Shown: piece by piece, positions 20,706 through 64,000 of the stretch
Layout: each line of letters begins with the position of its first letter
Position numbering within the stretch: the stretch's first letter is position 1
From: Mycoplasmatota bacterium
Lineage (GTDB): Bacteria > Bacillota_I > Bacilli_A > Acholeplasmatales > Acholeplasmataceae
DNA length: 64,000 bases
NCBI GenBank assembly: GCA_018622495.1
Contig: CP076021.1
Location: 1,426,501-1,490,500 of the forward strand
Direction: 5' to 3'
Notes under the pieces: model-generated
Seen by the model: the letters and a program-made list of their open reading frames with translations, nothing else
Databases searched by the model: none
What the model was told of the DNA's origin: nothing
Program-made: the position numbers and the translations under genes

Positions 20706-20729
20706 AAAAGAAAGCATTTGCTTTCTTTT
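20706..20729. repeat. 24-bp hairpin direct repeat, left flank of IS copy 1
   Basis: Identical to 22354-22377. Each copy is itself a perfect inverted repeat: AAAAGAAAGC, loop ATTT, GCTTTCTTTT. It reads as an intrinsic terminator duplicated on insertion. Confidence 0.85.
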
Positions 20730-22353
20730 CAGACTGTTGAAAAAAGCCCCATTTAAAAACTCAAGGTTAATTTGAGATTAAAAAAGGGCTTTTTCTTTTG
20801 CCATTTTGATAAGAGTTTGACGATCAGAGTTGATAAATTAATGGATACGTGTTCTTTTAATGCTCTTTCAGCTAATCTTAATGCCATTTTTTTGACATTC
20901 ATGCATGAGAAAGTAAGCGATATATGATCGCTTGCTTTTTTTAAGCCCCGATAATAGGTGAATCGCCCCTGGTGTCTTTCCTTGAAATCTCCAAAACACC
21001 TTTCTATGGTCTGTTTCCTTAAGGCGTATTTCTCTTTTCCATATGCTGATTTTCTAATCTCATCAGAAAATCTAAAGTAGTCTTGGTACACGGAAATTCT
21101 AAGTGTTTTTTTCTTTTCTTTTGGACTCATACATTTGCTTTTAAATGGACATGCCTGACATATCGTCTGATCGCAGCTATACGCTTTATAGCCTTGACGG
21201 TTTGTGGTTTTATAGATGAGTGTTTCATAGTTTGGGCACGTATAACTATCTGTTTGCTCATCATATAAAAACTTATGATTGCCAAAGTCACCTTTATGAG
21301 CATTTGTACGCTTATAAGGCATTAAAGGGAGTATCTCGCTTGTCAGAGATTGCTTTGATGATCGGACCTGTTTTATAACCTGCATCTAATCCAGCAGCTT
21401 CAATAAGTCCTTCATACCTATCATTGATGCGTTCAAATACCTCTTTAAATATTTGTGAGTCATGGATGTTTGATGGTTTTAATACTTGTCCTAGAATAAA
21501 TCCATGTCTATCACACACTGCGTGTGAGTTATAGGAGAAATTATGTTCTTTTTCACCTTTATTAAGCCATCCTGAATCAGGATCTGTTTTACTTTCTTTT
21601 TTTCGTTTCTTTTCATCTTTTTGCTTTTGAGGTGGCAGCGGCTTTTTATCGTTTTCTTTGCGATCTTCATTAATCACTTCTAAAACTTCTTTTTCAAACA
21701 CACTTTTTTCTTTTTGAATCATTTTATCGACATATTTCTTTTTGTTTGCACTTGCTTTAATATGTGTGCTATCGATAAATATATAGGTTGGATCAATTAA
21801 GTTTGATGCTTCTATTTGTTTTAAAAATCCTTCAAAGACTTTCTCATAAATGTCGGTGTCATAAAATCGGTTCGTATAAGCTTTAGAATAGGTTGAATGA
21901 TCAGGTACATTTTCGTAAATGGTATACCCAAAAAATATCGATATGCGATATTGACTTTAATTTCTTCACAGGTCCTTCTCGATACTTGATATCCCAAAAG
22001 TTGATTTTAAAATTGCGATTTTAAAGAGAACGACTGGGTCATATCCTGGTCGTCCAATATCACTATAATAAGGTTTTGCTAACTCTCTGATAAATGTATA
22101 ATCCACATGTTTGATGAGTTTTCTTACTAAATGATCTTTTGGTACGATATCTTCCATCGTTGACATAATAAACTCATCTTTTGCTTGTGTCTTTTGATGA
22201 CTCATAATTCCACCGCCCTTATAATTGTATTTTATTATTTGACGATTCACTTTTATAGAGTTGTGTGATATTTTTCACAACTTTGTGGATAACTTTTTGT
22301 TCTATATTAAAAAAAGCACCTTTCACAAAGAAAAGTACTTTTTCAACAGTCTG
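20730..22353 (-). mobile_element. IS1182-like insertion sequence, copy 1
   Basis: 1624 bp bounded by inverted repeats CAGACTGTTGAAAAA and TTTTTCAACAGTCTG. One transposase gene on the minus strand. Near-identical to 58611-60232 (1622 bp); small indels account for the difference, and correcting them gives 1623 bp for both. Flanked by a 24-bp direct repeat that is a complete terminator hairpin, downstream of msrB. Confidence 0.9.
20753..22205 (-). CDS. IS1182-type transposase (copy 1), frame broken at three sites
   Basis: The start ATG at 22205 follows GGGCGGTGG; the longer frame from 22250 lacks this. Corrected length is 483 residues. Order: N-terminal 'DYTFIRELAKPYYSDIGRPGYDPVVLFKI', 'PDHSTYSKAYTNRFY', DDE-type 'YIFIDSTHIKASANK', 'NFSYNSHAVCDRHGFI', 'AGLDAGYKT', zinc-like Cys cluster 'CDQTICQACPFKSKCMSP', and 'RKQTIERCFGDFKERHQ' with the last acidic residue. 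Breaks are near 21336 (+1), 21911 (-1) and 21980 (+1). Each is at an expected CAGA; correction yields 'SSIRRTCEEIKVNIAYRYF', 'GIPFTENVPDHS' and 'AISDKQILPLMPYKR', which fit the family. Probably intact in the cell. Confidence 0.88.
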
Positions 22354-22377
22354 AAAAGAAAGCATTTGCTTTCTTTT
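22354..22377. terminator. 24-bp hairpin direct repeat, right flank of IS copy 1; msrB terminator
   Basis: Same 24 bp as 20706-20729, starting one base after the IS end. It is AAAAGAAAGC-ATTT-GCTTTCTTTT and directly follows the msrB stop, so msrB keeps a complete terminator despite the insertion. Confidence 0.8.
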
Positions 22378-35502: not shown

Positions 35503-35668
35503 GTCTACGCTTTTACCCTTCCGTAAATACGCTCGCTCATAGATCATTGGGTAATGATTTATAAACAGTCATATGTCTCTTAAACATATGCCCAGCGTGA
35601 CTTTCACACTTCGGCAAACACCCCTTTCCTTTAAAAAGTACTCTTGGTGCATGCAACCTCAATATTTA
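35503..35668 (-). ncRNA. Lysine riboswitch (L box)
   Basis: Read on the minus strand the leader has the L-box core in order: TTGAGGTTGC, then AAGAGTA, then GGAAAGGGGTGTTTGCCGAAG, then GCTGGGC, a GACTGT element, and TACGGAAGGGT near the 3' side. A terminator follows directly and then lysA, a lysine pathway gene. This combination is well known for lysine-sensing riboswitches that shut off transcription when lysine is high. Exact aptamer ends are approximate. Confidence 0.9.
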
Positions 35669-35688
35669 CAGTGATTTAATTTCATGTT

Positions 35689-58583: not shown

Positions 58584-58610
58584 AGATCTAATACAAATTG
58601 TATTAGATCA
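58584..58610. repeat. 27-bp hairpin direct repeat, left flank of IS copy 2
   Basis: Identical to 60233-60259. Core GATCTAATACAA / TTGTATTAGATC is a nearly perfect palindrome; minus strand continues into five T, so it looks like an intrinsic terminator. Confidence 0.85.
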
Positions 58611-60232
58611 CAGACTGTTGAAAAAAGCCCCATTTAAAAACTCAAGGTTAATTTGAGATTAAAAAAGGGCTTTTTCTTTTGCCATTTTGATAAGAGTTTG
58701 ACGATCAGAGTTGATAAATTAATGGATACGTGTTCTTTTAATGCTCTTTCAGCTAATCTTAATGCCATTTTTTTGACATTCATGCATGAGAAAGTAAGCG
58801 ATATATGATCGCTTGCTTTTTTTAAGCCCCGATAATAGGTGAATCGCCCCTGGTGTCTTTCCTTGAAATCTCCAAAACACCTTTCTATGGTCTGTTTCCT
58901 TAAGGCGTATTTCTCTTTTCCATATTCGATTTTCTAATCTCATCGAGAAAATCTAAAGTAGTCTTGGTACACGGAAATTCTAAGTGTTTTTTTCTTTTCT
59001 TTTGGACTCATACATTTGCTTTTAAATGGACATGCCTGACATATCGTCTGATCGCAGCGATACTCTTTATAGCCTTGACGGTTTGTGGTTTTATAGATGA
59101 GTGTTTCATAGTTTGGGCACGTATAACTATCTGTTTGCTCATCATATAAAAACTTATGATTGCCAAAGTCACCTTTATGAGCATTTGTACGCTTATAAGG
59201 CATTAAAGGGAGTATCTCGCTTGTCGAGATTGCTTTGATGATCGGACCTGTTTTATAACCTGCATCTAATCCAGCAGCTTCAATAAGTCCTTCATACCTA
59301 TCATTGATGCGTTCAAATACCTCTTTAAATATTTGTGAGTCATGGATGTTTGATGGTTTTAATACTTGTCCTAGAATAAATCCATGTCTATCACACACTG
59401 CGTGTGAGTTATAGGAGAAATTATGTTCTTTTTCACCTTTATTAAGCCATCCTGAATCAGGATCTGTTTTACTTTCTTTTTTCGTTTCTTTTCATCTTTT
59501 TGCTTTTGAGGTGGCAGCGGCTTTTTATCGTTTTCTTTGCGATCTTCATTAATCACTTCTAAAACTTCTTTTTCAAACACACTTTTTTCTTTTTGAATCA
59601 TTTTATCGACATATTTCTTTTTGTTTGCACTTGCTTTAATATGTGTGCTATCGATAAATATATAGGTTGGATCAATTAAGTTTGATGCTTCTATTTGTTT
59701 TAAAAATCCTTCAAAGACTTTCTCATAAATGTCGGTGTCATAAAATCGGTTCGTATAAGCTTTAGAATAGGTTGAATGATCAGGTACATTTTCTCGTAAA
59801 TGGTATACCCAAAAAATATCGATATGCGATATTGACTTTAATTTCTTCACAGGTCCTTCGATACTTGATATCCCAAAAGTTGATTTTAAAATTGCGATTT
59901 TAAAGAGAACGACTGGGTCATATCCTGGTCGTCCAATATCACTATAATAAGGTTTTGCTAACTCTCCGATAAATGTATAATCCACATGTTTGATGAGTTT
60001 TCTTACTAAATGATCTTTTGGTACGATATCTTCCATCGTTGACATAATAAACTCATCTTTTGCTTGTGTCTTTTGATGACTCATAATTCCACCGCCCTTA
60101 TAATTGTATTTTATTATTTGACGATTCACTTTTATAGAGTTGTGTGATATTTTTCACAACTTTGTGGATAACTTTTTGTTCTATATTAAAAAAAGCACCT
60201 TTCACAAAGAAAAGTACTTTTTCAACAGTCTG
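58611..60232 (-). mobile_element. IS1182-like insertion sequence, copy 2
   Basis: 1622 bp with the same terminal repeats as copy 1 (CAGACTGTTGAAAAA / TTTTTCAACAGTCTG). Near identical to 20730-22353. Flanked by a 27-bp duplicated hairpin. Same orientation as copy 1 relative to the window. Few substitutions between the copies suggest recent transposition. Confidence 0.9.
58634..60084 (-). CDS. IS1182-type transposase (copy 2), several frame breaks
   Basis: Same protein as copy 1 with start ATG 60084. Breaks near 58926 (-1), 58944 (+1), 59216 (+1), 59225 (-1), 59483 (-1, T-run), 59794 (+1) and 59858 (-1), net -1. Where copy 1 reads correctly (for example 'DYFRFSDEIRKSAYGKEKY'), copy 2 is broken, and the reverse. 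At 21910/59793 and 21980/59858 both are altered but differently, and both fit one CAGA. Corrected length is again 483 residues. Likely functional in the cell. Confidence 0.85.
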
Positions 60233-60259
60233 AGATCTAATACAAATTGTATTAGATCA
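60233..60259. terminator. 27-bp hairpin direct repeat, right flank of IS copy 2
   Basis: Second copy of the 27-bp palindrome, starting one base after the IS end. It is downstream of the minus-strand membrane gene at 60331-61196 and probably its original terminator. Confidence 0.7.
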
Positions 60260-61196: not shown

Positions 61197-61720
61197 AATA
61201 CCCATTAATATTTTAGTTTTTATTATCTTACACATTTATATATGAAACTTTCTAATTTAATTATTATTTTAACATAATATATTTTGTTTTAAAAGACGAC
61301 ATCATTTACGTTAATAACTATTCTTACTAAATACAGTATGGATAGGAGAAAAAATTATGACAATCGAAAAACAATTGATATTAGCATTTTCAACCAATAA
61401 ATACATAGAACAACAAAACTAATACTTTAATATATTAGACTAAAGTTTTCAATATGTCTTGAATAACCTGTTTTGATACAATCACTTCACTCTTCTATTT
61501 CTTGCATATGTTTAAAAAACACCTTTATACAAAAGAATATAGTTGATTAACTGTAATTATCAAATAAAGAAAAGATTCCAATAATTACTCTAATTTGGTA
61601 GAGTATTATCAAAAGAAAGGTGGTATTTTAATGTAATCAAAAAGACTCTATAAAAATTTTGTATTAATCTTTTACAGAACACAAATTATTTAATGAGAAA
61701 GCAAATACCTTTCCTGTATA
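61197..61720. other. Gap without clear gene; small plus-strand frame only
   Basis: AT-rich sequence. The only candidate is a 21-codon frame at 61357. Other short stretches have many stops. The region may be decayed. Confidence 0.5.
61357..61422 (+). CDS. Possible small peptide or gene remnant
   Basis: 21 codons ('MTIEKQLILAFSTNKYIEQQN') with AGGAGA 8 bases before the ATG. RBS and spacing are good, but length gives no family evidence. It may be the start of a truncated gene. Confidence 0.25.
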   Translation: MTIEKQLILAFSTNKYIEQQN

Positions 61721-61955
61721 AAAAGGTCTGATACATTTGTATCAGACCTATATTTACAATATGCGTTGTATGACCTATTTTGCTACAATTTTACACCCCT
61801 AGTGAGAATTTTTACACCCTCACCCTAAAAAAATACACCCCTAAATTATGGCTTAGTTTAGAGGTTTTATTTTACGACTTTTTCTAGCGCTAAATTCTTT
61901 GTGTCAAAATAGGGTATTTAACTATCTGCTAAATGTTGGGTATCAAACCCTAAAT
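61721..61955. repeat. 235-bp direct repeat, copy A, with three phased TACACCC motifs
   Basis: Matches 63713-63948 over most of its length. Begins with a hairpin GGTCTGATACA / TGTATCAGACC, then TACACCC at 61792, 61813 and 61834 (spacing exactly 21 bp), and ends with TAGGGTA ... ACCCTA. Confidence 0.8.
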
Positions 61956-61967
61956 TAGTTATATTTT

Positions 61968-63712: not shown

Positions 63713-63948
63713 AAAAAGGCCTGATACAATTGTATCAAACCTATGCTTTCAATATGGGTTGTATGAACTATTTTGCTACAATTTTACACCCCTAGTGAGA
63801 ATTTTTACACCCCTACCCGAAAAAATTACACCCCTAATTTATAGCTTTGTTTAGTCTTTAAATTTTATTGAATTTTTCAAGTGGTAATTTCTTTGTGTCA
63901 AAATAGGGTATTCCACTATCTATTTAATGTTGGGTATCGAACCCTATA
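63713..63948. repeat. 235-bp direct repeat, copy B
   Basis: Homologous to 61721-61955. Hairpin at the left (GCCTGATACA / TGTATCAAAC), TACACCC at 63785, 63806 and 63827 (21-bp spacing), TTTGTGTCAAAATAGGGTA and a TATCGAACCCTA end. The last 52 bases show nothing further. Confidence 0.8.
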
Positions 63949-64000
63949 TTTTACTATAAAAGTTCTAACTTACTAATTTCTATAATTTCAATCGTATTTA

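Follow-up and report, generated by a model that had tools for sequence, protein, structure and literature searches.

The insertion sequence (IS) described here, a member of the IS1182 family, probably encodes a DDE transposase that selects the hairpins of intrinsic terminators, joins the element at the extruded cruciform, and duplicates the hairpin enclosed between the two joints. The 64-kb stretch of DNA analyzed (the window) carries the following features of two of its copies.

20706..20729, no strand: left target duplication of copy 1, a 24-nt hairpin, AAAAGAAAGCATTTGCTTTCTTTT
20730..22353, minus strand: IS1182-family insertion sequence, copy 1, 1624 bp
22354..22377, no strand: right target duplication of copy 1, 24 nt, AAAAGAAAGCATTTGCTTTCTTTT
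58584..58610, no strand: left target duplication of copy 2, 27 nt, AGATCTAATACAAATTGTATTAGATCA, equal to 60233-60259
58611..60232, minus strand: IS1182-family insertion sequence, copy 2, 1622 bp, one of five near-identical copies in the genome
58611..58625, no strand: terminal inverted repeat of copy 2, CAGACTGTTGAAAAA
58634..60084, minus strand: transposase gene of copy 2, DDE type, frame broken by small indels
60218..60232, no strand: terminal inverted repeat of copy 2, TTTTTCAACAGTCTG
60233..60259, no strand: right target duplication of copy 2, 27 nt, AGATCTAATACAAATTGTATTAGATCA

Read directly from the sequence, the repeats to the left and right of copy 2 are identical at 27/27 nt, and each consists of a full 25-nt hairpin (a 12-bp stem with a 1-nt loop) plus 1 nt on either side. 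A preliminary description of this DNA had placed copy 2 inside a palindrome with a 27-bp duplication, and its coordinates are right to the base; it was also correct that this hairpin is unlike the one at copy 1, to which it is unrelated in sequence. The host genome, a single 1.6-Mb contig, contains five full-length copies of the element that differ by small indels and substitutions only, and the whole hairpin is duplicated on both sides in 5/5 of them. The duplicated hairpins measure 21 (with one loop mismatch), 24, 27, 29, and 36 nt, and all are unrelated in sequence. Because only 22 hairpins as strong as these occur in the window (four being the duplicated copies themselves, and compared with 2 after block shuffling), and yet each of the five genomic copies is inserted at one, chance can be excluded.

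The assignment to the IS1182 family is based on the curated model NF033551, which scored 290.7 bits (cutoff, 270) on a 400-amino-acid (aa) piece of L004, the longest open copy; the copies in the window are frame-broken. Further transposase matches were to DDE_Tnp_1_6, DDE_Tnp_1, and DUF772, and the inverted repeats present at the ends of all copies agree with this family. In copy 2, the transposase frame is open in two pieces (58940-59398 and 59371-60129), whereas the relatives L036 and L065 retain an intact single open reading frame (ORF) of 487 aa. The five copies (L001 to L005) differ mainly by 1- to 2-nt indels at GA/AG sites, with the transposase frame broken differently in each, a pattern that suggests early decay or else a systematic error of sequencing or base calling. 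Genome G016, which carries a transposase identical to the one in Peloplasma aerotolerans, is from the same family as the host genome. None of the solved structures was related by sequence to the transposase. An AlphaFold model of the Peloplasma protein (pLDDT of 84) gave TM scores of about 0.34 against piggyBac and Tn5, a predicted resemblance confined to the DDE fold, and because the likeness goes no further, the model is uninformative on cruciform binding.

Relatives of the element were gathered from public genomes with an alignment query, a single-protein scan of genome contigs having yielded none; their ends were anchored at CAG...CTG, and each empty site was rebuilt by script. A duplication was detected in 78 distinct insertions, of which 77 were analyzable; these are independent and nearly all from Bacillota. 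Every one of the 77 duplications lies on a stem-loop, with lengths of 17 to 42 nt (mean, 25.9) and a median stem score of 11.0, compared with 3.85 for random windows of equal length nearby, and every insertion site carries a different hairpin. The center of the duplication coincides exactly with the hairpin dyad in 67/77 cases and falls within 1 nt of it in 75/77, the 10 off-center duplications being displaced by 0.5 to 2.5 nt. A fitted local-sequence model that picks each end on its own predicts only 16.6 ± 3.4 exactly symmetric cases instead of the 67 observed, and the 77 duplication lengths have no helical phasing (10- to 11-bp periodicity; R of about 0.02). With dyad centering so far above the independent-end expectation and no helical phase, the two cuts are coupled through symmetry. 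Loci without a detected duplication lie mostly at contig ends or have two different hairpins, the latter being the expected outcome of recombination between copies. The elements L054 and L060 of genome G026 share swapped flanking hairpins, as homologous recombination between copies would give.

In textbook DDE transposons, enzyme geometry dictates a constant length of target duplication. The single clade studied here has lengths of anywhere between 17 and 42 bp, and the duplications are nonetheless mirror symmetric about the dyad, so that the fold of the target seems to set the length. Structure-guided targeting, which the preliminary description had proposed from two copies, is thus strongly supported by the wider set: measured over 77 insertions, the lengths are not constant, all of them fall on hairpins of unrelated sequence, and the two ends are coupled at the dyad irrespective of helical phase. 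Together, these properties suggest that the transposase recognizes a target by its folded shape.

By position and anatomy, the target hairpins are overwhelmingly predicted intrinsic terminators. A T or A tract, as in terminators, accompanies 71/77 sites; 78% of the sites start no more than 60 nt past a stop codon, compared with 7% of random positions, and only 10% lie inside an ORF, compared with 88% of random positions.

Pre-insertion sites bear on whether the hairpins are target duplications at all. For the Enterococcus faecalis element in L203, the rebuilt 320-nt empty site occurs uninterrupted in many E. faecalis plasmids, with matches of 319 nt at 99.4% identity that contain one hairpin and no IS. 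Empty sites for two Pseudomonas insertions are likewise uninterrupted in other plasmids, and no empty site was found in plasmids for a Providencia element. At the place orthologous to that of copy 1 in a genome of the same genus (G001), the neighboring genes are kept, the IS is absent, and a terminator hairpin is present whose sequence differs from that of the copy 1 hairpin. It is therefore highly improbable that the hairpins are terminators carried by the element or products of later recombination or assembly error: the swapped flanks of L054 and L060 do show that exchange between copies occurs, but the hairpin differs at every site, and the pre-insertion sites with a single hairpin refute the idea that the hairpins are parts of the element or artifacts.

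The preliminary description had also held that duplication length follows the hairpin and that structure rather than sequence is recognized, and both statements need qualification. Over the 77 insertions, duplication length correlates with palindrome length (Spearman coefficient of 0.51), which bears out the trend; the coefficient stays below 1 because in long palindromes the duplication ends inside the stem, nearly always symmetrically, as in L134, where 24 bp of a 50-bp palindrome are duplicated. In a choice model over symmetric positions, the log likelihood was −181 for the null, −162 for the stem foot, −110 for the local sequence AA|ARR, and −103 for both combined, with a penalty on cuts beyond the stem foot. 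A rule equating the duplication with the stem foot was accordingly rejected as a full account (−162 versus −110 for AA|ARR), and a cut at constant distance from the tip, with a log likelihood equal to that of the null, was likewise discarded for the whole-hairpin clade. Symmetric AA|ARR steps inside the stem are the cut positions in long palindromes. Guidance by structure is thus well supported, but its opposition to sequence is overstated, since AA|ARR predicts the cut along the arm better than the stem foot. As terminators carry A and T tracts in any case, structure and sequence are partly confounded.

We infer the extruded cruciform, the binding of its junction, and the order of steps from the geometry of the insertions, and the symmetry, end coupling, and lack of phasing are consistent with them. 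The palindrome would extrude as a cruciform, bringing the two strand-transfer points, one in each strand on the 5′ flank of that strand's hairpin, to meet at the four-way junction whatever the length of the arms. Both 3′ ends of the IS would then join there, at the stem foot or farther in, on a symmetric A-tract/T-tract step (AA|ARR), and branch migration could place the junction at such a step inside a long stem. Gap repair would finally leave the IS with a copy of the enclosed hairpin on either side. A likely benefit is that the host gene retains its terminator and the IS gains one on each side.

Two other ways of recognizing the same sites deserve consideration, both of them unlikely. A flexible dimer might read inverted A-tract motifs (AA|ARR...YYT|TT) around GC-rich DNA in a linear, unfolded target, and indeed no other single predictor locates the cut along the arm as well as local sequence does. 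Such an enzyme, however, must span 17 to 42 bp at any helical phase and yet cut mirror symmetrically; exact dyad symmetry is four times more frequent than independent ends allow, some sites, such as L083 and L098, are symmetric although they have no T tract on one side, and related clades cut at the loop. At marginally longer odds still, the enzyme might recognize a single-stranded hairpin, formed on the lagging-strand template or in the transcription bubble at a terminator, and not a double-stranded cruciform. Transposons of the IS200/IS605 family use single-stranded hairpins, and the targets here are active terminators as judged from position and anatomy. A single-stranded target, however, fits poorly with the orientation of the element, which has no significant bias relative to the T tract (32:20, P = 0.13) or to GC skew (38/73), and a DDE enzyme requires both strands to form the duplication. 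The double-stranded cruciform at a terminator remains the reading that we prefer.

Other branches of the family use hairpins differently. In the Pseudomonas ISPpu20 group (L211, L212, L213, and L229), the terminator is split and the duplication is the exact 4- to 5-nt loop in 4/4 independent insertions. A Bacilli clade with GARG..RCTGAAAA ends makes duplications of 8 to 9 bp (once 11 bp), mostly centered on the tip of a terminator hairpin or close to it; one element of this tip-targeting clade (L172/L263) has its 9-bp duplication within a single arm of a longer hairpin, away from the tip. No hairpin duplication was seen in the clade of IS1272, ISSau3, and IS1182, which agrees with the hairpin deletion published for IS1272 (PMC5678879, PMC4923244), and several proteobacterial members of the family have short duplications without a hairpin. 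In the transposase tree, the whole-hairpin mode forms one branch (SH-aLRT of 97) and the loop mode another (SH-aLRT of 100), and IS1272, ISSau3, and IS1182 itself fall in a clade separate from the whole-hairpin one. On balance, we lean toward viewing the IS1182 family as structure-guided DDE transposons that attack extruded terminator cruciforms at clade-specific landmarks, so that DNA structure rather than a fixed enzyme stagger sets duplication length. Attack at the foot or at an inner junction position would duplicate the whole hairpin, attack at the loop edge the loop, and attack at the tip 8 to 9 bp, with IS1272 representing a mode in which the hairpin is lost.

The closest known system is that of IS1272 and TnSha1, IS1182-family elements of staphylococci for which stem-loop-replacing transposition is described in two papers (PMC5678879, PMC4923244). 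The transposase family is the same, and the targets there are also hairpins, mostly terminators, without a sequence consensus; however, IS1272 removes the hairpin wholly or partly and makes no duplication (PMC5678879, PMC4923244), whereas here the hairpin is duplicated whole. The element in the window neither deletes its hairpin nor groups with IS1272 and ISSau3 in the tree. In figure 13 of the 2017 paper (PMC5678879), pathways b and c are drawn as untested alternatives, free of data in the passages at hand. Pathway b, attack at the 5′ feet with duplication of the whole stem-loop, corresponds to the whole-hairpin clade, and pathway c, attack at the loop edge with duplication of the loop, corresponds to the Pseudomonas ISPpu20 group; both are seen here in natural insertions, together with a dependence on A/T steps inside long stems. 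Palindrome targeting by some IS1182 members goes back to a 2015 review, cited in general terms in both papers, the first of which remarks that detailed data on it are absent (PMC5678879, PMC4923244). Insertions into REP palindromes (PMC1525189) similarly have palindromic DNA as the IS target, but those targets, as far as the portion of that paper used here goes, are one repeated sequence family, whereas ours are unrelated hairpins with a site-dependent duplication length.

Our search of the literature on IS1182, hairpins, and target duplications, in which mainly the two IS1272 papers were relevant, found whole-hairpin or loop duplication nowhere documented; ISfinder and TnPedia, which may list palindromic duplications, and the 2015 review were outside its scope. 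Palindrome targeting by IS1182 members was already known; new, as far as the literature searched goes, are the symmetry rule and the mapping of distinct modes to clades, with priority uncertain. The natural insertions provide large-sample support for a mechanism proposed only hypothetically in 2017, make it testable with simple target mutants, and show how insertion at the ends of genes can be compatible with an intact terminator for the host gene.

The window has two further features of note. A direct repeat of about 235 bp (61720-61956 and 63713-63950; 85 to 87% identical, at a spacing of about 1993 bp) includes a strong hairpin (61724-61749) and had no Rfam match at the gathering threshold. 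A lysine riboswitch (Rfam RF00168) lies at 35522-35670 on the minus strand.
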